A DNA stretch of 32,517 bases from contig JAFTPN010000007.1 in assembly GCA_017463245.1 (NCBI GenBank), positions 1 to 32,517 on the forward strand, read 5' to 3'. Every line of letters begins with the position of its first letter. Position 1 is the stretch's first letter. Source of the DNA: Clostridia bacterium (GTDB taxonomy: Bacteria > Bacillota > Clostridia > Christensenellales > Aristaeellaceae). The notes beneath the pieces are model-generated. The model was given only the letters and a program-made list of their open reading frames with translations, made no database searches and was not told where the DNA came from. Position numbers and translations under genes: made by a program. Below, in pieces: positions 12,474 through 26,761 of this stretch.

Positions 12474-13754
12474 TTACTTGCCGGTCTTGCGGCTGGACAC
12501 CACGTCGAAGATAACGGCGATGAGCAGCACCGCGCCCTTGACCACATACTGCCAGGAGTCGGTGATGCCCATGATGGACATGCCCATGTTGATCACGCCC
12601 AGCAGCAGAGCGCCGATGACCACGCCGCCGATGGTGCCGCTGCCGCCGTAAGCGGAAGCGCCGCCGATGAAGCAGGAGCCGATGGCGTCCATCTCAAAGG
12701 AGGTACCCGTCTGGCCGGAAACAGAGCCCACGCGAGCCAGGCAGAGCAGGCCGCACAGGCCAGCCAGCAGACCCATGTTGGCATAGGCCAGGAAGTACAC
12801 CTTGTTGGTGTTGATGCCGGAGAGGCGGGTAGCCTTCTCGTTGCCGCCTACGGCGTAGAAGTAGCGGCCAAAGGCCGTCTTGGCGGTGATGAAGTTGTAG
12901 ATCAGGCAGATGGCCAGCACCCACACCAGCATCACGGAGATGCCCTTGTACTGCGCCAGCATGGAGCAATACCACAGGATGATGGCGCCGATGACGATGG
13001 TCTTGCCATAGTCCACCAGGGCGCTGTTCTGGCGGTAGCCATGCTTTTTCTTGTTGGCACGGGAGCGGATGGTCATCACCAGGATCACCACCACGGCCAG
13101 GGCGCCGATGATCAGGGGAGAAATGGCCTTGATGGTGCCAAAGGAGGTCTCGATGTTGTTGTAGACCCACTTGGTGACCTCAACGCCCTTCTTGTTCAGC
13201 TCGGTGACCATGCTGCCATCCAGTCCGGGAATGGTGATGTAGGAAGTAAAGATGTTCTTGAAAACATCATCCTGGATGGCCACGGTTTTGCTGTCCAGCA
13301 CCAGTCGACCCATGCCGCGGAAAATGAACATGCCGGCCAGGGTGGTGATGAAGGGCGGGATGCGCACATAGCCGATCCAGTAGCCCTGCCAGATGCCCAC
13401 GCCCACGCCGATGAGCAGGCACAGGGCGATGGTGAGGTAGGTGTTCCAGCCCAGGTTGCTGATCAGCACAGCGGCCAGGCCGCCGGTGAGGCAGATCACC
13501 GAGCCAACGGACAGGTCGATGTTACCGCCGGTGAGGATGCACAAAAGCATACCGCAGGCCATGACCAGCACATAGCCATTCTGCAGGAGCAGGTTGGACA
13601 TGTTCTGGGCATACAGCAGACGGCCATCGGTAAGGAAGTAGAACAGGATGAACACCACCACCAGGGCGATGGTCATGGAGTTCTTCGTCAGGAATTTGAT
13701 GATCTTGGTCTTGGTGCTCTCCTGAGCCACGGCAGTTCCGGTATTTGCTGCCAT
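12474..13754 (-). CDS. mmsB: Sugar ABC transporter permease, MmsB/GguB type
   Basis: A 426-residue permease with AAAAGGAG before the ATG. It has the branched-chain/ribose permease fold of about 10 TM segments. Marker motifs are CILTGGNIDLSVGSVICLTGG, RIPPFITTLAGMFIFRGM and GGNEKATRLSGINT (the coupling loop contacting the ATPase), and GGASAYGGSGTIGG. Length above 400 and a long periplasmic loop (about 150-215) separate MmsB/XylH from RbsC (about 320). It works as a dimer with MmsA and receives sugar from the ChvE-like protein. In relatives the substrates are xylose, glucose, galactose or arabinose; the exact sugar here is unknown. Confidence 0.93.
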   Translation of the reverse strand: MAANTGTAVAQESTKTKIIKFLTKNSMTIALVVVFILFYFLTDGRLLYAQNMSNLLLQNGYVLVMACGMLLCILTGGNIDLSVGSVICLTGGLAAVLISNLGWNTYLTIALCLLIGVGVGIWQGYWIGYVRIPPFITTLAGMFIFRGMGRLVLDSKTVAIQDDVFKNIFTSYITIPGLDGSMVTELNKKGVEVTKWVYNNIETSFGTIKAISPLIIGALAVVVILVMTIRSRANKKKHGYRQNSALVDYGKTIVIGAIILWYCSMLAQYKGISVMLVWVLAICLIYNFITAKTAFGRYFYAVGGNEKATRLSGINTNKVYFLAYANMGLLAGLCGLLCLARVGSVSGQTGTSFEMDAIGSCFIGGASAYGGSGTIGGVVIGALLLGVINMGMSIMGITDSWQYVVKGAVLLIAVIFDVVSSRKTGK

Positions 13755-13779
13755 AAGGCGTCACTCCTTTTCTGAATTA

Positions 13780-15312
13780 TCACTTGCTGTCGCGCAGAAT
13801 GTGACCCATGATGATCTCCTGCGTGGCTTGAGCCGTTTCCAGCTCAGCAAGCAGCTTGCCCTCGTTCATGACGTAGATGCGGTCGCTCATGCCCAGCAAT
13901 TCGGGCATCTCCGAGGAGATCATGATGACCGATTTGCCATTCTCCACCATCTGATTGATCAGGCAGTAGATGTCATACTTGGCGCCCACGTCGATGCCGC
14001 GGGTAGGCTCGTCGAGGATCAGGATGTCGGGTTCGGTGAACATCCACTTGCCCAGCAGGGCTTTCTGCTGGTTGCCGCCGGAAAGGTTGCCCACCTTCTG
14101 CTCGATGGAGGGGGTCTTGGTACCCATTTCTTCCTTCATGCGCTCGGCGTCGATGCGTTCCTTTTCCCGGTCGATGATGCCCCTGGCGCTCACCTTGTCC
14201 AGGCGTGCCAGGGTGGTGTTCATGCGGATGCTCTCGTTCAGCAGAAGGCCGTTGGTTTTGCGGTCCTCCGTCACATAGGCAAGGCCGGCGTGGATGGCGT
14301 CCACGGGGCTCTTCAGCACGGTTTCCTTGCCGCCCACCTTCAGCTTGCCGGAAATATCCGTGCCATAGCTCCTGCCGAAGATGGACATGGCCAGCTCGGT
14401 GCGGCCAGCGCCCTGCAGGCCGGAGAAGCCAATGACCTCGCCCTTGTGCACCTTGAAGGAAACATTGTCCACGACTACCTTTTCGGGGTAGAGGGGATGG
14501 TGCACCGTCCAGTCGGTGACTTCCATGCTCACCTCGGGCTGGATGTTGCGCTCGCGGGCGGGGTAGCGATCCTCCATGGAGCGACCCACCATGCCCTTGA
14601 TGATGCGATCCTCGCTCAGGTCGTCCACGCCCTTGACCAGGGTCTCGATGGTGGCGCCGTCGCGCAGGATGGTGGCCTTGTCGGCACAGTAGATGATCTC
14701 GTTGAGCTTGTGGGTGATGATGATGGAGGTAAGACCCTGCTTTTTGAACTCCATCAAAAGATCCAGGAGCATCTTGGCGTCCTCGTCGTTCAGGGAGGAG
14801 GTGGGCTCGTCCAGGATCAGCAGCTTCACGTTCTTGGAGAAGGCCTTGGCGATCTCCACCAGCTGCTGCTTGCCGGTGCCGATGTCCTTGATCAGCGTGC
14901 GGGCAGATTCCTGCAGACCCACCTGAGCCATGTGCTTTTCGGCCTCGGAGTAGGTTTTATCCCAGTCGATGACGCCGTTCTTTTTGAACTCGTTGCCCAG
15001 GAACATATTCTCGCCAATGGTCAGCAGCGGGATCAGCGCCAGCTCCTGATGGATGATCACAATGTTCTGCGCCTCGGAATCCTTCAGCGTTTTGAACTGG
15101 CAGAGCTTACCGTTGTAGTGGATCTCGCCTTCATAAGTGCCATAGGGATAAATGCCTGAAAGCACGTTCATCAGCGTGGATTTGCCAGCGCCGTTTTCGC
15201 CGATCAGGGCGTGGATCTCACCGCGTTCCACCACCAGATTAACGTTATCCAGCGCTTTAACGCCCGGGAATTCCTTGGTGATCGACTTCATTTCCAGAAT
15301 GATGTCCGCCAA
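13780..15312 (-). CDS. mmsA: Sugar ABC transporter ATPase, MmsA/GguA type
   Basis: Two fused ATPase domains, about 510 residues. I place the start at the second of two TTG codons ([18 protein letters not shown]), eight bases after AAAGGAGG; the first TTG is too close to it. The first domain has Walker [11 protein letters not shown]-loop HQELALIP, variant signature [14 protein letters not shown] and Walker [12 protein letters not shown]. The second has a degenerate Walker A (GLQGAGRTE), [15 protein letters not shown] and [14 protein letters not shown]. This asymmetry is normal for sugar importers. It lies between the binding protein and permease genes and energises uptake. Confidence 0.94.
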
Positions 15313-15348
15313 GTTCAATTCCTCCTTTCAAAGTCGCTGTTCTTCACG

Positions 15349-15373
15349 AAAAGGGCGGGGCTTAGCCCCGCCC
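15349..15373 (-). terminator. Attenuating hairpin between chvE and mmsA
   Basis: GGGCGGGGC/GCCCCGCCC with a 3-base loop, followed on the minus strand by TTTTCG. It lies inside the operon, so partial termination would give more binding-protein mRNA than ATPase and permease mRNA and protect the chvE 3' end. The ordering is seen; the effect is inferred from other sugar operons. Confidence 0.75.
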
Positions 15374-15430
15374 AAACAGCGTAACTGTTTTCAGTCAGCA
15401 CGCCCTTTCGGGTTGAACCGACGTTTGTGA

Positions 15431-16537
15431 TTACTCAGCAGCCTTCAGGTAGCCGTCGTCGCCCATAACATACAGGCCGGTGGCAACCAGGTCGTTCAGG
15501 TTGTCCTTGGTGATCACAGAGGGCACCAGCAGGAAGGAGGGGCACTTGGTGCCTTCGGAGGTCTCGTAGGACTCGGTGTCATAAGCGCAGTCCACGCCGA
15601 AGGTCTTCACCAGTTCTTCGCCGTTCACTTCGCCAGCCAGCATGGCCTTGGCCAGTTCCAGGGTCACAACGGCTTCGTTCATCACGTTCTTGTAAACGGT
15701 CATGGTCTGCTTGCCGTCAACGATGTTGGCGAGGTTGGCGATGTCGCCGTCCTGGCCGGTCACGATGATGGTGTTGGAGCCAGCGTAGTCGGACTCGATG
15801 GCCTGAGCAACGCCCAGAGCGGTGGAGTCGTTGGAGCAAACCCAGGCGTCCAGCACGGTGCCGTCGGCATAGTAGGAAGCCAGGATGTTAGCAGCGCGGT
15901 TCAGGGCGGTGTCGGTGTTCCACTGGGCAGTGGCGACTTCCTGGAAAGCGGTCTGGCCGGAGGTGACCTTCACGGTGCCGTTGTCGATGTAGCCCTTCAG
16001 CACATCGTAAGCGCCATTGAAGAAGTAGCCAGCGTTGTTGTCGGCGGGGTCGCCAGCGGTGAACTCGATGACGTAGGTCTTGTCACCGGCGTTGGCCAGA
16101 TCCAGAGCGGTCTCAACATACTGGCCCTGCAGCTTGCCCACGGTGTAGTTGTCGAAGGACACATAGTAGGACACAGCGTCGTTCAGGATCAGACGGTCGT
16201 AGGAGATGACGGGGATGCCAGCGTTGGCAGCTTCGTCCATCACGGTGTTCAGGGCTTCGCCGTCGATGGCGGCGATGATCAGCAGGTCAACTTCATCAGC
16301 CAGCATGTTCTGGATGTCGTTCACCTGACGGCCAGCGTCGTTATCGGAGTAGGTCAGGATGGTCTCAAAGCCAGCGGCCTTGAACTGCTCGTCCAGGTAA
16401 GAACCGTCGCGGTTCCAGCGCTCCAGGGACTGGGTGGGCATGGAGATACCGATCTTCTTGGGGGCTTCAGCAGTCGCAACGGCGAACACGCTCAGCACCA
16501 GAGCCAGAGCCAGAAGCAGAGATACGAACTTTTTCAT
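15431..16537 (-). CDS. chvE: ChvE-like multiple sugar-binding protein
   Basis: A 368-residue periplasmic-type binding protein. The N-terminal 23 residues (MKKFVSLLLALALVLSVFAV) form a signal peptide ending ATAEA with no cysteine, so it has no lipobox. The mature part begins KKIGISMPTQSLERWNRDG, the ChvE/XylF opening, and includes NDAGRQVNDIQNM, VISYDRLI, AWVCSNDSTALG and VTGQDGD, which line the sugar pocket in the family. It delivers aldoses to MmsB. Lack of a lipid anchor is unusual for a monoderm and is shared with YtfQ in this window. First gene of its operon; a consensus promoter lies upstream. Confidence 0.93.
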   Translation of the reverse strand: MKKFVSLLLALALVLSVFAVATAEAPKKIGISMPTQSLERWNRDGSYLDEQFKAAGFETILTYSDNDAGRQVNDIQNMLADEVDLLIIAAIDGEALNTVMDEAANAGIPVISYDRLILNDAVSYYVSFDNYTVGKLQGQYVETALDLANAGDKTYVIEFTAGDPADNNAGYFFNGAYDVLKGYIDNGTVKVTSGQTAFQEVATAQWNTDTALNRAANILASYYADGTVLDAWVCSNDSTALGVAQAIESDYAGSNTIIVTGQDGDIANLANIVDGKQTMTVYKNVMNEAVVTLELAKAMLAGEVNGEELVKTFGVDCAYDTESYETSEGTKCPSFLLVPSVITKDNLNDLVATGLYVMGDDGYLKAAE

Positions 16538-17794: not shown

Positions 17795-18868
17795 TCAGTC
17801 TTTCTTGCCGATCTGCATCCATTGGGGCAGCAGCTTCTTCAGGCCGCCCTTGCCGCGGTTGGAAAGCACCACGCTTTGCAAAAGGATGAAGAAGCACAGC
17901 ATGGCGCCGGTGGTGATGGACTGCCACCAGGGATCCCGCAGGCCGGAGGTGGTCACGATGGCCTTGATGGTGGTCAGCGTCAGCGTGCCAAACAGGGTGC
18001 CGATCACGTTGCCCACGCCGCCGGAGAGCAGCGTGCCGCCGATGATGGCCGAGGCGATGGCGTTCATTTCAGCGCCGGCGGCGTTGGTGGCGTTGCCCGC
18101 GCCGGTGTGCATCATGAACACAAAGCCCGCGATGCCGGAGAGGATGCCGCTGATGAGGTAGGAGTAGAAGCGGGTGCGCTTCACGTTCACGCCCAGCATC
18201 AGGGCGGACTGGCTGTTGCCGCCCATGGCGTAGAAGTTGCGGCCAAGGCGGGTCTTTTTCAGCACGAAGAAGATGATCAGCACGATCAGCAGCGCCACCA
18301 CCACGCCGATCTCCATGCGGGCGGGGATCAGGTTGCCCTTCTTGGCAATGTAGCCCAGCCAGGGGATCTCGATCTTGGTCTTCATCAGCTGCTGGAAGCC
18401 CTCGTGGGCGATCTTCTGGGGCTCCAGGGAAACGATGGTGGTCATGCCCCGGGCAAAGAACATGCCCGCCAGGGTGATGATGAAGGGCTGGATCTCCAGA
18501 TAGGAGATGAGGAAACCATGCACCAGGCCGAAGCACAGGCCGATGCCCAGCGCCAGCAGCGCGGCGGTGAAAATGCTGCCGCCGTTGTTCATGTGGACGA
18601 TGCAGCTCATCACCACCAGGGCGGTGACGCCGCCCACGGAGATATCGATGCCGCCGCCGATCATGACCACCGTGAGGCCGCAGGCCACGATGATCAGGGC
18701 AGCGTTGTTGTTCAGCATGTCAAACACCTGCTGCCAGCGCAGGAAGCCGCCGCCCCAGATGGCCATGGCAGCAAAGTACATGGCGAAGAAAATGCAGATG
18801 GTAATGGTCAGGAGCAGCTGGGTATCGGTCAGCGGCTCCCGGCGCTTCAGTTCACGGTTGCGCTTCAT
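17795..18868 (-). CDS. yjfF: Sugar ABC permease, YjfF-like (second permease)
   Basis: A 357-residue permease. The ATG of MKRNRELKRREPL is chosen because AAGGAGG precedes it, and it overlaps the ytfT stop by four bases (ATGA). About 9-10 TM segments. Motifs are VVMIGGGIDISVGGVTALV, EIQPFIITLAGMFFARGM, MGGNSQSALMLGVNVKRT and ASAIIGGTLLSGGVGNVIG. With YtfT it forms a heterodimeric channel, as in the galactofuranose system of E. coli and the fructose system of bifidobacteria. It is the last gene of the operon, ending about 50 bases before a terminator. Confidence 0.92.
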   Translation of the reverse strand: MKRNRELKRREPLTDTQLLLTITICIFFAMYFAAMAIWGGGFLRWQQVFDMLNNNAALIIVACGLTVVMIGGGIDISVGGVTALVVMSCIVHMNNGGSIFTAALLALGIGLCFGLVHGFLISYLEIQPFIITLAGMFFARGMTTIVSLEPQKIAHEGFQQLMKTKIEIPWLGYIAKKGNLIPARMEIGVVVALLIVLIIFFVLKKTRLGRNFYAMGGNSQSALMLGVNVKRTRFYSYLISGILSGIAGFVFMMHTGAGNATNAAGAEMNAIASAIIGGTLLSGGVGNVIGTLFGTLTLTTIKAIVTTSGLRDPWWQSITTGAMLCFFILLQSVVLSNRGKGGLKKLLPQWMQIGKKD

Positions 18869-19932
18869 GCTGCCGCCTCCTTTCCTGCCTTGCCCGCGGT
18901 GAGCTTCTTCCACAGCTGGTTCAGCTTGGCCTTCACCACGGGAGAACCGATGACCACGATGAGGATGATCACAATGGCCTTGTAGGCCTTCACGTCGGTG
19001 GAGGGCACCTTCATGGCATAGAGGGTGATGGTCAGCGCCTGGATGGCGTAGGCGCCCAGCACGGAGCCCGCCACCTTGAACTTGCCGCCGCCCAGGGCGT
19101 TGCCGCCGATGGCCACCGCCAGAATGGCGTCCATCTCAATGTCCAATAGCAGGGTCTCGTGGTTGATGAGGCTCAGGCGGCTCACGGCAATGACGCCCGC
19201 AATGGCGCAGCACGCGCCCAGGATCATGAAGGAGAGCAGCTTGATGCCGGTGGTGTTGATGCCGTTGAGCCGGGCAGCCCGCTGGTTGATGCCCACGGCC
19301 TGGGTATACAGCCCCAGGGTGGTGAACTTGAACACCAGCGAGAGCACGATGGCCGTGATGATCACGATGATGATGGGGGTGGGCACCGGCACACCGGGGA
19401 TGAAGCTGCCGATGGCGTTGATCAGCGGGCTTTCCACGGTGGGAGTAGCGCCGCCGTTGATCCAGTAGGCCACAGAGCGGCCGCAGGTGAACAGCACCAG
19501 GGTGGCGATCATGGGCTGGATCTTGAACACGGACACCAGCGTGCCATTGAAGGCACCGAAGGCCATGGCCACCGCGCAGCAGGCCACAAAGCCCAGGGCG
19601 ATGGCGAGGGGGGTGATCTCGCCTGCGCGCAGCACCTTCACGAACACGCTGCCTGCAATGGCTGCCAGCGCGCCCACGGAGATATCCTGGCCGCCGCAGG
19701 CTGCGGTGACCAGCGTCATGCCCATGGCCAGGATGGCCAGTTCGCTGGCGCCGTTGAGGATGGAGATCAGGTTGCCGGTCAAAACGGTGCTGCCTGCATT
19801 GTTGGTGGTCACCTCAATGGAGAAGAAGCTGGGGTCGCGGAAGGCGTTGAACAGAATGATCAGCGCAATGGAGAGCAGCGGCACCAGCAGCTGCGAGTGC
19901 TTGCTCCAGTTCTTTTTGGCCTGCTTTGCCAT
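18865..19932 (-). CDS. ytfT: Sugar ABC permease, YtfT-like (first permease)
   Basis: A 355-residue permease starting at MAKQAKKNWSKHS; GGGAGGTGG lies before the ATG, which is one base after the ytfR stop. Motifs are TLVTAACGGQDISVGALAAIAG, KIQPMIATLVLFTCGRSVAYWI, VGINQRAARLNGINTTGIK and VAIGGNALGGGKFKVAGS. It pairs with YjfF. The tight spacing through ytfR-ytfT-yjfF shows one transcription and coupled translation. The YtfT label rests on the two-permease arrangement and on overall likeness; rbsC-type naming would also be defensible. Confidence 0.92.
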   Translation of the reverse strand: MAKQAKKNWSKHSQLLVPLLSIALIILFNAFRDPSFFSIEVTTNNAGSTVLTGNLISILNGASELAILAMGMTLVTAACGGQDISVGALAAIAGSVFVKVLRAGEITPLAIALGFVACCAVAMAFGAFNGTLVSVFKIQPMIATLVLFTCGRSVAYWINGGATPTVESPLINAIGSFIPGVPVPTPIIIVIITAIVLSLVFKFTTLGLYTQAVGINQRAARLNGINTTGIKLLSFMILGACCAIAGVIAVSRLSLINHETLLLDIEMDAILAVAIGGNALGGGKFKVAGSVLGAYAIQALTITLYAMKVPSTDVKAYKAIVIILIVVIGSPVVKAKLNQLWKKLTAGKAGKEAAA

Positions 19933-19933
19933 A

Positions 19934-21442
19934 TCAGTCTCCACCTCCCGCAATGGTACGCATCACATTGTCCTGGGTCAGCTCGGTACCGCGCAATTCG
20001 CCCACGATGTGGCGGTCGCGCATGACGATGAGCCGGGAACAGGTGCGCAGCATTTCTTCGATCTCAGAGGAAATAAAGGTGACGCTCATGCCCTCTTCCG
20101 CCAGCTTGCGCACCAGGCGCTGGATCTCCGTTTTGGTACCCACGTCGATGCCGCGGGTGGGTTCATCCAGGATCAGGTACTTGGGATGGGTGAGCAGCCA
20201 GCGAGCCAGAATGACCTTCTGCTGGTTGCCGCCGGAAAGGGACTTGATGGGCGTATCGGAGGATGCGGTCTTGATCTCCAGCGCCTTGATGTATTCATCG
20301 GCAAAGGCCTCGGCCTCCGCCTGGGAGAAGGGATGGAAGAAGCCCTTTTCCACCTGCAGCGCCAGAATGATGTTCTCCCGCACGCTCAGATCGGCAATGA
20401 TGCCGTCGTCCTTGCGATCCTCGGGCAGGTAGCCGATGCCCTGCTTCATGGCGTCGATGGGCTTGCCGATCTTCACGGCCTTGCCATCGATCTTCACCTT
20501 GCCGCCGGTGACGCGATCCGCACCGAAAATGGCGCGCACGCTCTCCGAGCGGCCGGAGCCCAGCAGGCCGGTGAAGCCGTTGACCTCGCCCTTGCGGATG
20601 GCGAAATCAAAGGGGTTCACGCCCTTGGCGCTGGAAAGCTCGCTGGCCTCATACACGGGGGTGGAGGCGTCTGCCACGGGGGTATCGTCCCGCACCAGGT
20701 CGCTCAGGCCTTCCAGCTCCTTGCCCATCATTTTGGACACCAACTCCACCTGGGGCAGATCCTTCACCTCGTATTCGCCCACCAGTTCACCATTGCGCAA
20801 AACGGTGATCCGGTCGCTGACGGCGTAGACCTGCTCCAGGAAGTGGGTCACGAAGATGATGCCCACGCCGCGGCTCTTCAGGTCGCGCATGAGGGAGAAG
20901 AGCATCTCCACTTCCTTGTCGTCCAGGGAGGAGGTGGGCTCGTCCAGGATCAGCACCTTGCAGTCCATGTCCACCGCGCGGGCGATGGCCACCATCTGCT
21001 GCACGGCCAGGGAGCAGCTGCCCAGCTGCTGCTTGGGGCGGGCGGGGATGCCCAGGCTCCGGAGGATCTCACCGGCGCGCTTCTCCATGTCCTTCCACTT
21101 GACCAGGGCGCCTTTGCCACGGCCAATGAACATGTTCTCCGCTACGGTGATGTTGGGGCAGAGCGTGATCTCCTGATACACGGTGCTGATGCCCGCCTGC
21201 TGGGCGTCCTGGGGGGAGCGGATGATGACCTCGCCCTCCACGCCGTCCAGGTGGATGGTGCCTGCGTCCTTGGTGTAAACGCCGGTGAGCACCTTGATCA
21301 GGGTGGATTTTCCCGCGCCGTTTTCGCCCATCAGCGCGTGGACCTCGCCCTTGCGCAGGGTGAAATCCACATTGTGCAGCGCCCGCACGCCGGGAAATGT
21401 TTTGCCGATACCACGCATAGACAAAACGACATCGTTTTGCAT
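19934..21442 (-). CDS. ytfR: Sugar ABC ATPase, YtfR-like
   Basis: A 502-residue double ATPase starting at MQNDVVLSMRGIGKTFPGV, with GGAAGGAGG seven bases before. The first domain has Walker [10 protein letters not shown] (residues 39-47), YQEITLCPNI, CSLAVQQMVAIARAV as signature and [11 protein letters not shown]. The second has degenerate [24 protein letters not shown] and [17 protein letters not shown]. It drives both YtfT and YjfF. An in-operon hairpin at 21490-21531 separates it from the binding-protein gene, so it should be made in lower amount than YtfQ. Confidence 0.93.
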   Translation of the reverse strand: MQNDVVLSMRGIGKTFPGVRALHNVDFTLRKGEVHALMGENGAGKSTLIKVLTGVYTKDAGTIHLDGVEGEVIIRSPQDAQQAGISTVYQEITLCPNITVAENMFIGRGKGALVKWKDMEKRAGEILRSLGIPARPKQQLGSCSLAVQQMVAIARAVDMDCKVLILDEPTSSLDDKEVEMLFSLMRDLKSRGVGIIFVTHFLEQVYAVSDRITVLRNGELVGEYEVKDLPQVELVSKMMGKELEGLSDLVRDDTPVADASTPVYEASELSSAKGVNPFDFAIRKGEVNGFTGLLGSGRSESVRAIFGADRVTGGKVKIDGKAVKIGKPIDAMKQGIGYLPEDRKDDGIIADLSVRENIILALQVEKGFFHPFSQAEAEAFADEYIKALEIKTASSDTPIKSLSGGNQQKVILARWLLTHPKYLILDEPTRGIDVGTKTEIQRLVRKLAEEGMSVTFISSEIEEMLRTCSRLIVMRDRHIVGELRGTELTQDNVMRTIAGGGD

Positions 21443-21489
21443 ACACGTTCCTCCTTCCATGCTGTGCCTTCCTGGAAAAAGCCACGAAG

Positions 21490-21531
21490 CGCGGTGCGGT
21501 AGGCGGATCGCTCCACACAGACCGCACCGCG
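21490..21531 (-). terminator. Attenuating hairpin between ytfQ and ytfR
   Basis: CGCGGTGCGGT pairs perfectly with ACCGCACCGCG across a 20-base loop. On the minus strand GGCTTTTTCC follows a few bases later. Placement mirrors that of the hairpin between chvE and mmsA. Confidence 0.6.
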
Positions 21532-21566
21532 CGGGGTATTACTTGTTACTCAGCTTTCAGCTGTGC

Positions 21567-22529
21567 TTACTCGCCCAGGCCGTAGGTGTCGATGTCAGCC
21601 TGAGTGATGGTGGTGGCGTCGAAGCCCTTCTCCTCGGAGATGATCTTCTTGGATTCCAGGTTCAGAGCCTCACCGGCTTCCAGCTTCTGGATCAGATCAG
21701 AAATGACCTGAGCCTGGAAGGGAGAGCACTGGCCGTCGTAGTTCCAGTTGCCAGAGAGCAGTTCGCGAAGCGCCCAGCGGTTGCAGTCGAAACCCATCAC
21801 GATGACATCCTTGCCCACGCCGTGGGAGATGCCAGCCTCATCCAGGGCAGCCACAGCGCCCTTGGCCATGCCGTCGTTCTCGGCGTAGATGATGTTGAAG
21901 GCTTCCTTGGAGTTGATCACGGACTCGGTGATCTTCTTGGCTTCAGCTTCGTCCCAGGTAGCGGTCTGCTGCACGACGAGCTTCCAGTTCTCGTTGTTGG
22001 CAACCTGCTCGTCCAGCGCGCCGGTACGGCCGATCTGAGCGTCGGAGCCCATGGCGCCCTGAATGTGAATGATGTTGTAAGCTTCCAGGTTCTGGGCGAT
22101 CAGCCATTCCACGGCCAGCTTGCCCTGGTTCGCCATGTCGGACACAACGGCAGCCTCATACAGGCTCTCGTCGCAGGCGATCATGCGGTCGAACAGGAAC
22201 ACGGGGATGCCATTCTCCTGGGCGGAGGTCAGCACGGCGTCCCAGCCGGTGGTCTCAGCGGCGGAGATCAGCAGGTAGTCCACACCATCGGTGATGAACT
22301 GCTGAGCGGCAGCCAGCTGCTCGTCGTTCTTCAGGGAGTAGTAGGTCTTGGCGGCATAGCCATTCTCGGCAGAGAACACAGCCTCGAAGTCCTTCACGTT
22401 GGCCTCACGGTAGCCGGACTCGGACGGGGGGTTGTTCACGATACCCACGGTGACCTCGGCCATGGCAGAGCCAACGGTCATGGTCAGCACCAGCAGCATC
22501 GCAAGCAGCAGAGCGGCAAACTTCTTCAT
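21567..22529 (-). CDS. ytfQ: YtfQ-like sugar-binding protein of the ABC importer
   Basis: A 320-residue binding protein with CAGGAGG before the ATG. The signal peptide MKKFAALLLAMLLVLTMTVG ends in SAMA-E, a type I site; there is no lipobox cysteine. The mature part opens TVGIVNNPPSESGYREANVKDF and has GVDYLLISAAETTGWDAVL, PVFLFDRM, GSDAQIGRTGALDEQ and IIYAENDGMAKGAV, the pattern of galactofuranose/fructose binders. It is paralogous to the sensor protein at 24207-25178, with the same motifs in the same order. First gene of the operon and the likely target of the three-component regulator. Confidence 0.93.
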   Translation of the reverse strand: MKKFAALLLAMLLVLTMTVGSAMAEVTVGIVNNPPSESGYREANVKDFEAVFSAENGYAAKTYYSLKNDEQLAAAQQFITDGVDYLLISAAETTGWDAVLTSAQENGIPVFLFDRMIACDESLYEAAVVSDMANQGKLAVEWLIAQNLEAYNIIHIQGAMGSDAQIGRTGALDEQVANNENWKLVVQQTATWDEAEAKKITESVINSKEAFNIIYAENDGMAKGAVAALDEAGISHGVGKDVIVMGFDCNRWALRELLSGNWNYDGQCSPFQAQVISDLIQKLEAGEALNLESKKIISEEKGFDATTITQADIDTYGLGE

Positions 22530-22581
22530 GATTCATTCCTCCTGTTTTCTCTTTGTCCATTCTGGTGGACTTGTTACTGTT

Positions 22582-22741
22582 ATTGTATATGAAACGGCGG
22601 CGGGGAACATTCACATTCTTTTTTTGGATACAGAAACATTTTTGGATATTTTCTTTTCTTTTTTATGGAAATGAGAAATTATTTCGATTTCTGATACTTT
22701 TTTTGGATGGCTCTCCCCCGGATGGAAAAACATGATATACT
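22582..22741. promoter_or_regulatory. Divergent control region with TTTTTGGAT repeats
   Basis: Three direct TTTTTGGAT copies start at 22621, 22639 and 22700 (the first two extend to GGATA and are 18 bases apart). On the minus strand a TACAAT -10 for ytfQ at 22582-22587 has no good -35, and repeats 1 and 2 lie at about -46 to -73 from the expected start, an activator position. On the plus strand TATACT at 22736-22741 serves the kinase gene, also without a good -35. No gene lies in 22530-22761. The binding protein is inferred to be the YesN-type regulator at 25172. Confidence 0.55.
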
Positions 22742-22761
22742 GAAACAAAGAGGTGTATGCC

Positions 22762-24210
22762 ATGCAAAAGAAACAACAAAACCGCACCATCCAGCAGCAG
22801 ATCAGGCGGCTCCTGGGTACGGTGCTGCCGGTGATGGGCGCCATCATCGTGATACTGATCGTGATGCTTTTGTCCATCAACCGCCAATATACCGGCGTGC
22901 TGCTAAGCGCCAATACCGCTGCGGATTTCAACCAGGAGTTCAAGAGCCAGCTGGATTCGGGCATGTACAACCATGTGATCCGCCCCCGCAGCGAAGCCTC
23001 GGTGCAGGAGCTGCCCATGGCGGTGCTGGACGATGCCGCTGCTGTGCTGCGCCGATTGGAAAACACCACCACCCTCCGCGACAACCGCTGGCGCATCCAG
23101 AGCATGCTGGACATGTGCGAAAACCTGCGAGGGTACATGATCGAGATCGCCCAGGAGGAATCCTACGACCTGCGCATGGAGCTGTTGGAGCGCAACATCC
23201 GCGGCGAGACCGGCCTCACCAAGCTGATCGAGACCTATATGAACGATTTCATCAACGATGAAGTGCGGGAAATGGCACGGTTGCAGCGGCTCATCACCCA
23301 GCAGATGACCTTTGTGATCATTGCGGTCATTGCCGGGGTGGCGGTGCTGACGCTGGCCATGGTGTGGTATTCCGTGCGCGTGACCCGGCGCATCACAGGG
23401 CCCATCAGCGCGCTGTCCCGCAAGGCGCAGCAGTTTGGCGAGGGCGACTTCACCCCCACGCCCGTGGAGACCCACATCACCGAATTGCAGACCCTGGACA
23501 GCGGCTTTGACGAAATGGCCCGCCGCGTGGATGCGCTGATGGCCAAGCAGATCGAGGATCAGAAGTCCCTGCACCGGGCAGAGCTGGAGCTGTTGCAGGC
23601 GCAGATCAACCCCCACTTCCTCTACAACACGCTGGACTCCATTGCCATCCTGGCCGAGAGCCAGCGGGAGGAGGACGTGGTGACCATGGTCACAAGCCTT
23701 TCCACCTTCTTCCGCAACTCGCTGAACAAGGGCGAGGACATCATCTCCCTGGATGCGGAGCGCACCCAGGTGGCCAGCTACCTGGAGATTCAGCAGATCC
23801 GCTACAGCGACATCCTGCGCTATGAGATCAACATCCCCGAAGAGCTGTTGGACTGCATGGTGCCCAAGCTGATCCTGCAGCCCCTGGTGGAAAACGCCCT
23901 GTATCACGGCATCAAGAACCGCCGGGGCATGGGCACCATCACCGTCACCGGCGAGGCCGACGGCAGCGACCTGCTGCTGAAGGTCACCGACAATGGCGCG
24001 GGCATGGACGAGGAGCAGGTGCGCATCCTGCAAGCGGGCATTTACGAGGATCGCCACACCGGCCTGGGGCTGGTGAACGTGCATAAGCGCATCCGGCTCT
24101 ACTGCGGCGAACCCTACGGCCTGTTCTTTGAAAGCCAGATGGGCAAGGGTTCCATCGTGTCCATCCGATTGCCCCAGTATCGCAAAGAAGAAAAGGAGGT
24201 CTCCCTGTGA
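22762..24210 (+). CDS. YesM/LytS-type sensor histidine kinase
   Basis: A 482-residue kinase. I choose ATG at MQKKQQNRTIQ, eight bases after AGAGG; a GTG three codons earlier falls in the ribosome site. TM1 is about 17-38 and TM2 about 182-204. Between them is a mostly helical outside region of about 140 residues with no Cache fold visible. HAMP follows at 205-255, then His285 in LLQAQINPHFLYNTLD of the His_kinase family, N-box LVENALYHGIKN and DNGAGM. It overlaps the lipoprotein gene by four bases. The helical sensor part and the coupled binding protein suggest it reads sugar through that protein. Confidence 0.93.
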   Translation: MQKKQQNRTIQQQIRRLLGTVLPVMGAIIVILIVMLLSINRQYTGVLLSANTAADFNQEFKSQLDSGMYNHVIRPRSEASVQELPMAVLDDAAAVLRRLENTTTLRDNRWRIQSMLDMCENLRGYMIEIAQEESYDLRMELLERNIRGETGLTKLIETYMNDFINDEVREMARLQRLITQQMTFVIIAVIAGVAVLTLAMVWYSVRVTRRITGPISALSRKAQQFGEGDFTPTPVETHITELQTLDSGFDEMARRVDALMAKQIEDQKSLHRAELELLQAQINPHFLYNTLDSIAILAESQREEDVVTMVTSLSTFFRNSLNKGEDIISLDAERTQVASYLEIQQIRYSDILRYEINIPEELLDCMVPKLILQPLVENALYHGIKNRRGMGTITVTGEADGSDLLLKVTDNGAGMDEEQVRILQAGIYEDRHTGLGLVNVHKRIRLYCGEPYGLFFESQMGKGSIVSIRLPQYRKEEKEVSL

Positions 24211-25178
24211 AACGCATCCTGTTGATGGTCTGCATCCTGTGCCTGCTGATGCTCACCGCCTGCACGCCCGCCCCCGCAGTTCCCGTGGAGACCTACGATG
24301 ATATGATCGTGGTGGGGTTCTCCCAGGTGGGCGCGGAAAGCGACTGGCGCAACGCCAACACCCGCAGCATGAGGGAGGCACTGTCTGAGCAGAATGGCTA
24401 CCGCCTCATCATCGACGACGCCCAGCAGAAGCAGGAGAGGCAGATCACCGCCATCCGCAACTTCATCCACCAGGGGGTGGACTACATCGTGCTGGCGCCC
24501 ACCACCGAAACGGGCTGGGACACCGTGCTGGCCGAGGCCAAGGCCGCAGGCGTGCCGGTGATCATTGTGGACAGGATGATCGAGGTGGAGGACGACAGCC
24601 TGTTCACCTGCTGGATCGGCTCCGACTTCCGCAAGGAGGGCGATGCGGCGGTGGAATGGCTTGCGCAGCACTTTGGCGATGAGCCCCTGCGCATTGTGCA
24701 TTTGCAGGGGAACCTGGGCTCCTCCGCCCAGCTGGGGCGCACCCAGGGGCTGGACACCGGGCTGGCAAACCACCCTGCCTGGGAGCTGGTTTACCGCAAC
24801 ACGGGGGATTTTACCCAAGCAAAAGGCCAGGAGCTGGTGGAAGCGCTCCTGGCACAGGGAATGCAGTTTGATGTGATCTATTCCGAGAATGACAACATGG
24901 CCTATGGCGCCATCGACGCCCTGAAAAACGCAGGCTTGCAGCCCGGCAAGGACGTGACCATCATTTCCTTCGACGCCAGTCACGCGGCGCTGGAAATGGT
25001 CATGGCCGGGGAGATCAGCTTTGACGTGGAGTGCAATCCTCTCCATGGCCCCAGGGTGCAGGCCATTATCGAGAAGCTGGAAGCAGGCAGCAAGCCGCCC
25101 AAGCTGACCTATGTGGAGGAAACCACCTTCGATGCGGCCACCATCACCCGCCAGATCATGGACGGCCGGGGTTACTGA
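24207..25178 (+). CDS. Lipoprotein sugar-binding protein, likely sensor partner of the kinase
   Basis: A 323-residue YtfQ-like binding protein. It starts at a GTG whose TG is shared with the kinase stop (GTGA), seven bases after AAAGGAGG. The signal peptide ends LMLTAC, a lipobox, so it is membrane anchored. The mature part has VVGFSQVGAESDWRNANTRSM, GVDYIVLAPTTETGWDTVL, PVIIVDRM, GSSAQLGRTQGLDT and VIYSENDNMAYGAI, matching YtfQ at 21567 step for step. Its coupling to a kinase rather than to transport genes implies that it presents bound sugar to the kinase, as XylFII does with LytS in Clostridium beijerinckii. That role is inference; the sequence family is firm. Confidence 0.9.
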   Translation: MKRILLMVCILCLLMLTACTPAPAVPVETYDDMIVVGFSQVGAESDWRNANTRSMREALSEQNGYRLIIDDAQQKQERQITAIRNFIHQGVDYIVLAPTTETGWDTVLAEAKAAGVPVIIVDRMIEVEDDSLFTCWIGSDFRKEGDAAVEWLAQHFGDEPLRIVHLQGNLGSSAQLGRTQGLDTGLANHPAWELVYRNTGDFTQAKGQELVEALLAQGMQFDVIYSENDNMAYGAIDALKNAGLQPGKDVTIISFDASHAALEMVMAGEISFDVECNPLHGPRVQAIIEKLEAGSKPPKLTYVEETTFDAATITRQIMDGRGY

Positions 25179-26761
25179 TCGCCCTGCATGGCGCGGTTGC
25201 GGTATTCCTTGGGGGTGATGCCCTCCAGCTTGCGGAACACATGGCTGAAGTAGTTCGGCTCGTTGTAGCCGATCTCCATGGCGATGGTGGAGAGCTTCAG
25301 GCTGGTGGTGGCCAGCAGCTCCTTGGCGCGCTCGATGCGCATGGCGGTGAGGTAGTTGATGAAGGAGCGCCCCAGCGTTTGCGAGAACACGGTGCTGAAA
25401 TGCGCCGAGCTGAGTCCCACTTCCTTCGCCACGCTGATCAAAGAGATATTCGGATCGCAAAAATTCTCAGCCACGTATTTTTCAGCCCTGCTGATGACGT
25501 GGCTGTATTTGATATTGGCCGGGTTCTCCTGCTTCATGCTCACGGCCTTTTGGAGCAGCTCCACCGCCGTTTGCCGGAAGTCCTCCATCCGGCCGGAGGC
25601 AGCGAAGATATCATGCTCGCCGCTGAGCTTGGTGGCAATGTCCTTGGCGTCCACCCCGGGGGTGTTGCGGGCGATCTGCTCCACGGTCATCTTCAGAATG
25701 TCGATCAGCGCATAGTAGCGCATCAGCATGCTGTTGAAGCGGCTGCCCTCCGGGCTGGCCAGCACATCGTCTACCAGGGCGGGCACATCCCGGGCGGTGA
25801 CGTATTGCAGCTTCTGCTGGAACTCCCCGCCAAAGGGGTCGCCCAGCTCGATCATCTCGGCGGTGATCTGGGCGGAGTCGTTCACGTCCACCACCTGCCC
25901 CACGGACACGCCGCAGACCTTCTTGAGAAGATCCGCCGCGGTGTTGTAGGCCTGGCACACGCCGCTGAGGCGCTGCACCACATTGCCCACCACGGTGGTA
26001 ATGGTGGGGCAGAGCTCCTTCATTTCATGCCGGAGGATGTTGATGAACTGGTACACCTTTTCGCTGAGGCTGTCGGTATCCTGGCCGTAGCACAAAACCG
26101 TGAGCTGGTTGGACTCGGTGAAATAATACAGGGGCAGACCCTGCTGCTGCAAAATGTTTTCCACCGCAAAGCGGGAGGTCTGGTAGTCGAATTCCTCGGG
26201 GCTGAAGGAGAACAGCACCAGCTGGTAATAGGGCTTCACAATGTCCAGCTCCAGCGCCCGGGCGCGCTCCAGCAGGGTGGCGGTGTTCAGCCCGCCGTAG
26301 AGCAGCTGCTGCATGAAATGCTGGCGCAGCGCCAATTGCACCTCGTCCTGGTCATAGCCCCGGGGCAGGGTGCTTTTTGTTTTGCTTTCGTCGATCTGCC
26401 GCGCCATTTCCTCAATCACTTTGGTCAGCTCGGCCGAGCGGATGGGCTTGAGCAGGTACTGATCCACCCCCAGGGAGATGGCCTTCTGCGCCGACTCAAA
26501 GTCCCCATAGCCGCTGATGATGATGATCTTCAGCCAGGGCATCATGGCCTTGGCGTGGCGGATCAGCTCAAACCCGTCCAGGAAGGGCATGCGGATGTCG
26601 GTCAGAACGATGTCGGGCATCAGATCCTGCATCATGGACAGCGCCATTTCCCCATCGGAGGCCTCGCCGCAAAAGGCAAAGGGGCCGGGCATGTTTTCGA
26701 TCACATTGCGGATGCTCTGGCGGATGAGCAGCTCATCCTCCACCACGAATACCTGGTACAT
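25172..26761 (-). CDS. YesN-type response regulator with AraC DNA-binding domain
   Basis: A 529-residue regulator with GGAGG upstream. The receiver (1-120) has acidic VVEDE, phospho-acceptor Asp55 in IVLTDIRMPFLDG and Lys105 in YLLKPIRS. A middle part of about 280 residues is weakly conserved. The end (about 420-525) is an AraC/XylS double helix-turn-helix: ISLISVAKEVGLSSAHFSTVF and LSTIAMEIGYNEPNYFSHVF with GITPKEYR. It faces the sensor lipoprotein gene and their ends overlap by seven bases. As the only AraC-type protein here it is the natural activator of ytfQ. Confidence 0.94.
   Translation of the reverse strand: MYQVFVVEDELLIRQSIRNVIENMPGPFAFCGEASDGEMALSMMQDLMPDIVLTDIRMPFLDGFELIRHAKAMMPWLKIIIISGYGDFESAQKAISLGVDQYLLKPIRSAELTKVIEEMARQIDESKTKSTLPRGYDQDEVQLALRQHFMQQLLYGGLNTATLLERARALELDIVKPYYQLVLFSFSPEEFDYQTSRFAVENILQQQGLPLYYFTESNQLTVLCYGQDTDSLSEKVYQFINILRHEMKELCPTITTVVGNVVQRLSGVCQAYNTAADLLKKVCGVSVGQVVDVNDSAQITAEMIELGDPFGGEFQQKLQYVTARDVPALVDDVLASPEGSRFNSMLMRYYALIDILKMTVEQIARNTPGVDAKDIATKLSGEHDIFAASGRMEDFRQTAVELLQKAVSMKQENPANIKYSHVISRAEKYVAENFCDPNISLISVAKEVGLSSAHFSTVFSQTLGRSFINYLTAMRIERAKELLATTSLKLSTIAMEIGYNEPNYFSHVFRKLEGITPKEYRNRAMQGDQ

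Follow-up and report, generated by a model that had tools for sequence, protein, structure and literature searches.

Introduction

In Clostridium beijerinckii, the XylFII-LytS-YesN system, reportedly described by Li et al. in 2017, is said to combine a sugar-binding protein (SBP), a LytS-type kinase and an AraC-type regulator beside a CUT2 importer, and the AraPST system of Geobacillus is likewise said to provide an SBP, a kinase and a regulator for a pentose importer. Here we describe a set of genes that belongs by its content to the broad XylFII-LytS-YesN kind, and which lies in a 32,517-nucleotide stretch of contig JAFTPN010000007.1 (assembly GCA_017463245.1, from a gut-dwelling Clostridia bacterium of the Aristaeellaceae), the whole of which we call the window. 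The set consists of a LytS-type histidine kinase (K), a lipoprotein SBP (L) and a response regulator with an AraC-type DNA-binding domain (R), and it adjoins an importer, apparently of the GafABCD or YtfQ-YtfR-YtfT-YjfF type, that has an SBP of its own (Q). We give a probability of roughly 0.82 to the reading that this is a three-component furanose sensor which drives the neighbouring importer and works like XylFII-LytS-YesN.

What sets the set apart is the family of the sensor, an outer kinase domain for which there is no Pfam model, and the type of importer to which the set is linked. The likeness to XylFII-LytS-YesN extends to a dedicated SBP, a LytS-type kinase, an AraC-type regulator and a CUT2 importer with its own paralogous SBP; the differences are that the sensor here is of the GafA/YtfQ (furanose) type rather than the XylF type, and that R is convergent. 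AraPST would share with it the combination of an SBP, a kinase and a regulator for a sugar importer.

In CuaD-CuaS-CuaR of Ruminiclostridium cellulolyticum, according to PMC10384115, the lipoprotein SBP binds the outer region of the kinase with or without ligand. That system resembles the present one in its lipoprotein SBP, its AraC-type regulator and its separate transport SBP, but it is concerned with cellobiose, its SBP is a different one (410 residues), and its outer region was modelled with beta sheets, whereas the one here is predicted to be all-helical. The importer type and the pocket residues of the sensor are those of GafABCD / YtfQ-YtfR-YtfT-YjfF, although PMC10191376 assigns the control of that importer in E. 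coli to GalR/GalS and AraC and nowhere uses the term 'histidine kinase'. No description of a three-component system for a YtfQ-type furanose importer was found in the openly licensed PMC literature (full texts were not searched through), so the absence of an earlier description, as supposed in an initial sequence-only reading of this DNA, is plausible rather than proven.

Results

The locus and its proteins

The genes of the set and of the importer are the following.

22762 to 24210, plus strand: K, LytS-type sensor histidine kinase, 482 residues from ATG 22762 (485 from GTG 22753)
24207 to 25178, plus strand: L, putative GafA/YtfQ-type sugar-binding sensor lipoprotein, with Peripla_BP_4 domain and lipobox LTAC
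25172 to 26761, minus strand: R, response regulator with Response_reg, GGDEF_2 (a GGDEF-like middle) and HTH_18 (AraC-type DNA-binding domain)
21567 to 22529, minus strand: Q, ytfQ-like transport binding protein with an altered pocket and a signal peptide without Cys, divergent from K
19934 to 21460, minus strand: ytfR-like importer ATPase, best NCBIfam match YtfR (664 bits, cut-off 850)
18865 to 19953, minus strand: ytfT-like permease, best NCBIfam match YtfT (200 bits, cut-off 535)
17795 to 18913, minus strand: yjfF-like permease, best NCBIfam match YjfF (260 bits, cut-off 363)

The importer genes thus run yjfF-, ytfT-, ytfR- and ytfQ-like along the plus-strand coordinates, all on the minus strand (17795-22529), and the ytfQ-like gene and K diverge from a 223-bp gap. 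The ATPase and the two permeases lie nearest YtfR, YtfT and YjfF, which suggests, with matches below the cut-offs, an importer of the GafABCD type. ATG 22762 is the likelier start of K because the listed GTG 22753 sits within the ribosome-binding-site-like AAAGAGGTG; position 22582, where the sequence-only reading had begun the set, falls in the shared promoter region. The start of L overlaps the end of K by 4 nt (GTGA), in agreement with the overlapping lipoprotein gene reported there. R converges on L from the minus strand with a 7-nt overlap, and being on the opposite strand it is ruled out as a member of the K-L operon; the AraC-type regulator that had been counted as part of the set is indeed present, with its Response_reg and HTH_18 domains, but is not co-transcribed with the other two.

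K carries His_kinase, HATPase_c and HAMP domains in Pfam and two transmembrane helices, between which the outer region (approximately residues 39-185) is composed of helices only in an AlphaFold2 model built from 41 sequences (mean predicted local distance difference test score 82.9, predicted template modelling score 0.47). A PHFLYN block with H288 is invariant among 41 kinases. When 40 outer regions were searched against Pfam at E <= 0.001 no family matched, and no Cache domain was found in K; a sequence-profile search of the PDB with the outer domain returned 47 matches at E <= 1, none of which was named LytS. The helical, Cache-free outer region that had been anticipated is therefore what the model and the Pfam search give, and K would stand outside the Cache-domain sensor kinases. 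The XylFII-LytS-YesN kind joins an SBP gene with that of a LytS-type kinase, which has a His_kinase and HATPase core, HAMP and an outer region flanked by two transmembrane helices, and adds an AraC-type regulator. All of these are present here, so that in gene content the analogy drawn earlier holds.

Two binding proteins of one family

Of the two SBPs it is L that lies closer to the solved GafA/YtfQ proteins, scoring 248 bits against that of M. smegmatis (6hb0/6hbd), 221 against that of Shewanella (5ocp) and 212 against that of E. coli (2vk2), where Q scores 136, 108 and 116. The best NCBIfam match of L is YtfQ and there is no XylF match at E <= 1e-20, which places the sensor outside the XylF subfamily, so that L is not a strict XylFII orthologue. 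Of the 135 columns in which E. coli and M. smegmatis are identical, L shares 78 and Q shares 58; for 42 sensor-like proteins the mean is 81.0 (minimum 72) and for 31 importer-type proteins 56.6 (maximum 60). This contrast is partly built in, since it was their resemblance to E. coli YtfQ that decided the group of each protein, and L040_12 and L041_1, counted among the 42, actually adjoin an importer ATPase. Labels taken from gene position are free of this bias. In a tree of 132 rows (a quick method, with SBPs shorter than 240 residues and three duplicates excluded), all 59 position-labelled sensors group with the E. coli and M. smegmatis GafA proteins and 48 of the 57 position-labelled importer SBPs fall in two other groups, the rooting being weak because a very long outgroup branch may wrongly join the importer group, as the program warned. 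On this placement we reject, in its narrow sense, the idea of the sensor as a copied importer YtfQ. By these comparisons the canonical, GafA-like copy is L, the sensor, while Q stands further off; the paralogy proposed in the sequence-only reading stands, but the canonical motifs are better kept in the sensor than in the importer's YtfQ, rather than equally in both.

The same division is seen in the sugar pocket. Our list of pocket residues joins the conserved set named in PMC10191376 (Trp, Phe, Asp111, Arg38), where the three GafA proteins have identical pocket residues, with columns conserved in the alignment. L retains the conserved pocket residues of the solved GafA proteins, and all 42 sensor-like proteins keep Q30, W37, R38, W93, D111, R112, R167, N220, D248 and E267 (E. 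coli YtfQ numbering). In the importer-type SBPs, F28 has become I or V, Q30 has become N, T or L, and F191 has become W in 31 of 31, W37 has given way to Y in 23 and persists in 8, and E267 has given way to Q in 21, persists in 8 and faces a gap in 2, while R38, W93, D111, R112, R167, N220 and D248 are retained in all 31; the window's Q has F28, Q30, W37, F191 and E267 all replaced and the latter seven residues retained. These replacements, and the separation of most importer SBPs from sensors and known GafA proteins in the tree, would fit a situation in which sensor and importer see different sugars, the importer SBP being otherwise specialised so that one sugar announces another. We regard this as unlikely, though well worth keeping in mind: the seven retained residues and the eight loci, described below, in which one SBP seems to fill both roles argue against it. 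Because those seven are kept throughout, the importer may instead bind the same sugar with another affinity, for which CuaD and CuaA offer a precedent (PMC10384115).

As for which sugar is read, the bulky Phe40 of Shewanella GafA is given in PMC10191376 as a possible reason for its taking L-arabinofuranose only, and M. smegmatis GafA accepts both L-arabinofuranose and D-galactofuranose. The column aligned to Phe40 is Asn in L, in 41 of the 42 sensor-like proteins and in M. smegmatis GafA, and it is Asn in 31 of 31 importer-type proteins too.

Genes for L-arabinose isomerase, ribulose-phosphate epimerase or GH51 were present in the fetched flanks of 17 of 76 loci (a set that includes at least one duplicate, the L050 and L087 kinases being identical), and representative isomerase, epimerase and arabinofuranosidase proteins each scored above an NCBIfam cut-off. 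The count rises to 26 if a GntR-LacI-type regulator, which we take to be AraR, is included. Among 20 kinase-bearing genomes of the family, L-arabinose isomerase (AraA) was matched in 6, one of them partially, and among the 15 family genomes with the window's arrangement in only 2, which rules out the AraBAD route as the universal fate of L-arabinose; galactokinase matches were obtained in 19 of the 20, none above the cut-off. Overall, the sensor probably reads a furanose, which in some relatives would be L-arabinofuranose.

Recurrence and co-variation

A profile of the N-terminal part of the kinase, run against 391 genomes of the class, gave at least 44 matches that span most of the profile at E values up to 4.7e-30, the window's own among them; the weaker hits listed fall chiefly on the HAMP end. 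Of those 44, the four with the lowest scores are chemoreceptors, and 39 are kinases besides the window's (L124 lacks the PHFLYN-like check string). A GafA-family SBP (at least 90 bits) was found in the fetched flanks of 33 of these 39 and a YtfR-type ATPase (at least 400 bits) in those of 30, versus 0 of 20 control kinases in both cases; the controls were other LytS-type kinases hand-picked from the best partial matches, some of whose flanks end at contig ends, with weaker traces in L134, L146 and L152 (337-bit ATPase). Six survey loci are without a GafA-family SBP: L087 has both permeases, L090 has both permeases and a piece of ATPase, L092 has a piece of SBP, of 86 bits, where its contig ends, the contig of L088 is 3.9 kb long, that of L102 stops 22 bp away from the locus, and L091, which begins 354 bp from the end of its contig, has no GafA-family SBP in 8 kb downstream. 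The pairing of K with a GafA-type SBP exceeds chance.

In the 60 nearest genomes, Q is present at 54% identity or more in 21, of which 18 also have K (E <= 1.7e-58). In one of these, G019 (L018, L131), K is interrupted by three TAG stops in frame, and two other kinase matches of that genome contain one TAG each, for which recoding, decay or assembly errors are candidate explanations. Across the phylum, the outer region was present in only 5 of 398 genomes searched. Gene order is divergent in the window's relatives and elsewhere R-K-L-Q-A-T-F, L-K-R-Q-A-T-F or others; the linkage persists with the genes co-directional, and in another class of the phylum. The set also occurs in an Anaerolineaceae (Chloroflexota) metagenome-assembled genome (L045), nested among Lachnospiraceae on a very short branch, where recent transfer and a misplaced contig are both candidates.

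Some 65 kinase loci (L053 and L054 left out of the counts) are of two designs: 57 have two binding proteins, whereas 8 have only one GafA-type SBP, which lies next to the importer. Seven genomes with single-SBP loci were searched and each had only one match to L above 95 bits, so that one protein probably does both jobs there; a ninth such case, from another class of the phylum, has one GafA-type SBP in the 19.9 kb fetched. The survey for kinase-SBP coupling suggested in the sequence-only reading thus yields a recurring adjacency, but no kinase-SBP fusions were noticed in the tables of open reading frames, for which no dedicated search was made.

The distances between proteins were compared in 44 loci where all five were long enough (L001, L024, L123 and L131, duplicates or broken, were excluded). 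Distances of the kinase outer region (plain p-distances) correlate with those of the sensor at r 0.93 and of R at 0.89, and with those of the importer SBP and the ATPase at 0.56 and 0.59; the remaining values are 0.95 for kinase core and R, 0.89 for importer SBP and ATPase, and 0.61 for sensor and ATPase. Given the kinase core, the partial r between outer region and sensor is 0.56 (0 of 1000 permutations as high) and that between outer region and importer SBP is 0.05 (207 of 1000), and without the window's group (33 loci) these become 0.50 and -0.05.

It is at this point that another role for L can be weighed, namely that it is a mere second transport SBP for the importer, or for a neighbouring ChvE-type importer, while K senses something else alone. 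L and Q do share family and locus, and the single-SBP loci indicate that one such protein can serve the importer. L, however, overlaps K and not the importer, its distances track kinase and regulator above the ATPase (0.93 with the outer region versus 0.61), and in rearranged loci sensor and kinase often remain adjacent, the sensor-like protein standing apart in L038, L044, L095, L119 and L040. We therefore consider this role improbable, and a dedicated sensor working through K the better account.

The DNA between ytfQ and K

An alignment of the ytfQ-K intergenic regions of 20 of 21 loci (L021 was omitted, its contig being without ytfQ) contains four conserved blocks in addition to ribosome-binding sites and -10 elements, located in the window as follows.

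22581 to 22592, minus strand: conserved -10-like element, putatively of the ytfQ promoter, from conserved columns in 20 loci
22607 to 22622, no strand assigned: half-site 1, conserved in the alignment of 20 loci, roughly where the -35 element of the ytfQ promoter would lie
22635 to 22646, no strand assigned: half-site 2, conserved in the same alignment
22676 to 22687, no strand assigned: half-site 3, conserved in the same alignment
22692 to 22706, no strand assigned: half-site 4, conserved in the same alignment, upstream of the K promoter
22733 to 22741, plus strand: putative extended -10 of the K-L promoter, TGaTATACT (mostly TGnTATAAT in relatives)

Columns conserved to at least 90% number 51 of 224 in this gap versus 5 of 111 upstream of R (15 loci), where the alignment is poor and shows little conservation and no clear promoter footprint. 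The blocks resemble one another at lags of 20, 22, 41, 61, 63 and 83, values close to multiples of two helical turns. At lags 83, 20, 63 and 61 the scores (7.8, 7.3, 6.4 and 5.9) exceed the maximum (4.03) of 300 column shuffles, and lags 22 and 41 score above the 95% point (3.06), with the reservation that the blocks are largely T-runs, for which a column shuffle controls incompletely. In rearranged loci other conserved blocks, which may differ from these half-sites, lie upstream of importer SBPs.

Its place on the other strand and the poor conservation upstream of it might be taken to mean that R controls the importer without being the partner of K, their adjacency being incidental. The tracking of the kinase core by R (r 0.95), and the many other loci in which R and K are immediate neighbours with a common orientation, make this very improbable. 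The proposal, made in the sequence-only reading, that the set adjoins the importer that it probably controls is favoured by the recurrence of the adjacency, by the conserved repeats between ytfQ and K, and by the way in which kinase, sensor and regulator vary together.

The outer domain on chemoreceptors

Relatives of the outer domain occur on methyl-accepting chemotaxis proteins (MCPs). The open frames of L125-L128 (581-607 residues) carry the MCP signature string, with Pfam MCPsignal and HAMP in the three that were scanned, and match the kinase outer-domain profile at E 1.7e-15 to 4.4e-10 (nine-protein set, no filters; L128 was missed with filters on). At L160 an MCP (Pfam MCPsignal) lies directly downstream of yjfF and matches the profile at 1.8e-22 over the whole domain. 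The MCP of L125 follows a ChvE-GguA-GguB-type importer, that of L128 has a GguA-like ATPase at about 4 kb, and a related MCP in L162 (24.5 bits) has such an importer on one side and, on the other, a second gene for a ChvE-type binding protein; no importer of this type was found at L126, L127 (a 4.7-kb contig), L161 or L163, and the L161 MCP is below the kinase-profile threshold. Chemoreceptor genes near importers were also observed in L038, L087, L050 and L093. Those of L038 and L087 carry Cache domains, unlike K, and lend no support to the idea of a shared domain.

Neighbouring features

A second sugar importer, of the ChvE-GguA-GguB type, adjoins the first (12474-16537, minus strand), with NCBIfam scores of 323 bits for ChvE (cut-off 460), 794 for GguA (810) and 425 for GguB (450). 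The window's two transport binding proteins (21567-22529 and 15431-16537) have signal peptides without any Cys, whereas the sensor L has a lipobox. A crude lipobox pattern was failed by 26 of 67 importer SBPs of relatives and 17 of 60 sensors, several of which have a Cys nearby. Sensors of the Lachnospiraceae group (L043, L047, L049) have no Cys and an uncleaved-looking N-terminal hydrophobic helix, which may be another tethering route.

Discussion

From the gene content, family assignments, pocket conservation, recurring neighbourhood, co-variation and conserved DNA repeats computed here we infer the ligand, the contact between K and L, the phosphotransfer, the DNA binding and the activation. 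The lipoprotein L, tethered outside the cell, would close on a sugar in its furanose form (L-arabinofuranose and/or D-galactofuranose) and dock on the helical outer region of a dimeric K. The signal would then run via the second transmembrane helix and the HAMP domain to the LytS-type kinase core, which would phosphorylate R, and phosphorylated R would bind two pairs of half-sites, approximately 21 bp apart within each pair, between ytfQ and K. This binding would raise transcription of the importer genes ytfQ-ytfR-ytfT-yjfF, and probably of K-L as well.

Several observations weigh against this reading. Neither L (273 bits) nor Q (149) reaches the NCBIfam cut-off for YtfQ (510 bits). L-arabinose isomerase was not found in the window's genome (90.8% complete); relatives suggest L-arabinofuranose as the ligand, but for the window's sensor D-galactofuranose is as likely a candidate. 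The partial r between outer region and importer SBP given the ATPase is 0.10 (30 of 1000 permutations as high), or 0.15 without the window's group (12 of 1000), and shared descent in part inflates all the co-variation figures, the contrast between the two SBPs being their informative part. At L130 and L132, from the window's own family, sensor and kinase are present with no importer in the 14-18 kb fetched (in G029, the genome of L132, Q is on another contig), and G014, G038 and G040 have a Q-type protein (54% identity or more) and no such K; in G014 (L164) a close Q and ATPase have no K within 7.9 kb in the expected direction, so the importer can exist without such a sensor. Lag 73, which is off the 21-bp series, scores 4.12, just over the shuffle maximum. 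Finally, the half-site pair patterns (1+2 and 3+4, three mismatches) have no second place in the 2.7-Mb genome, in a search that matches its own locus by construction and that degenerate sites would escape; no independent regulon thus supports R binding, and R looks local.

The boldest point that we would make, with few cases behind it, is that the helical outer domain may be an undescribed, portable reader of CUT2-type binding proteins, placed on LytS kinases for gene control and on chemoreceptors for movement, and often encoded with its partner. Importer families would then carry their own detector, which could split off by duplication, a dual-role SBP giving rise to a sensor that preserves the furanose pocket and to a drifting importer protein. 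We hold this tentatively, at somewhat under even odds.

Because the switch recurs beside such importers in many related bacteria, it appears to be a genuine form, not described before, of a known sensing system. If the reading is right, furanose importers gain a membrane-bound control circuit, and detection of a sugar's ring form can take place outside the cell. The two-protein and one-protein loci would also offer a comparison of two designs, and with it a view of how a dedicated sensor arises from a transport protein.

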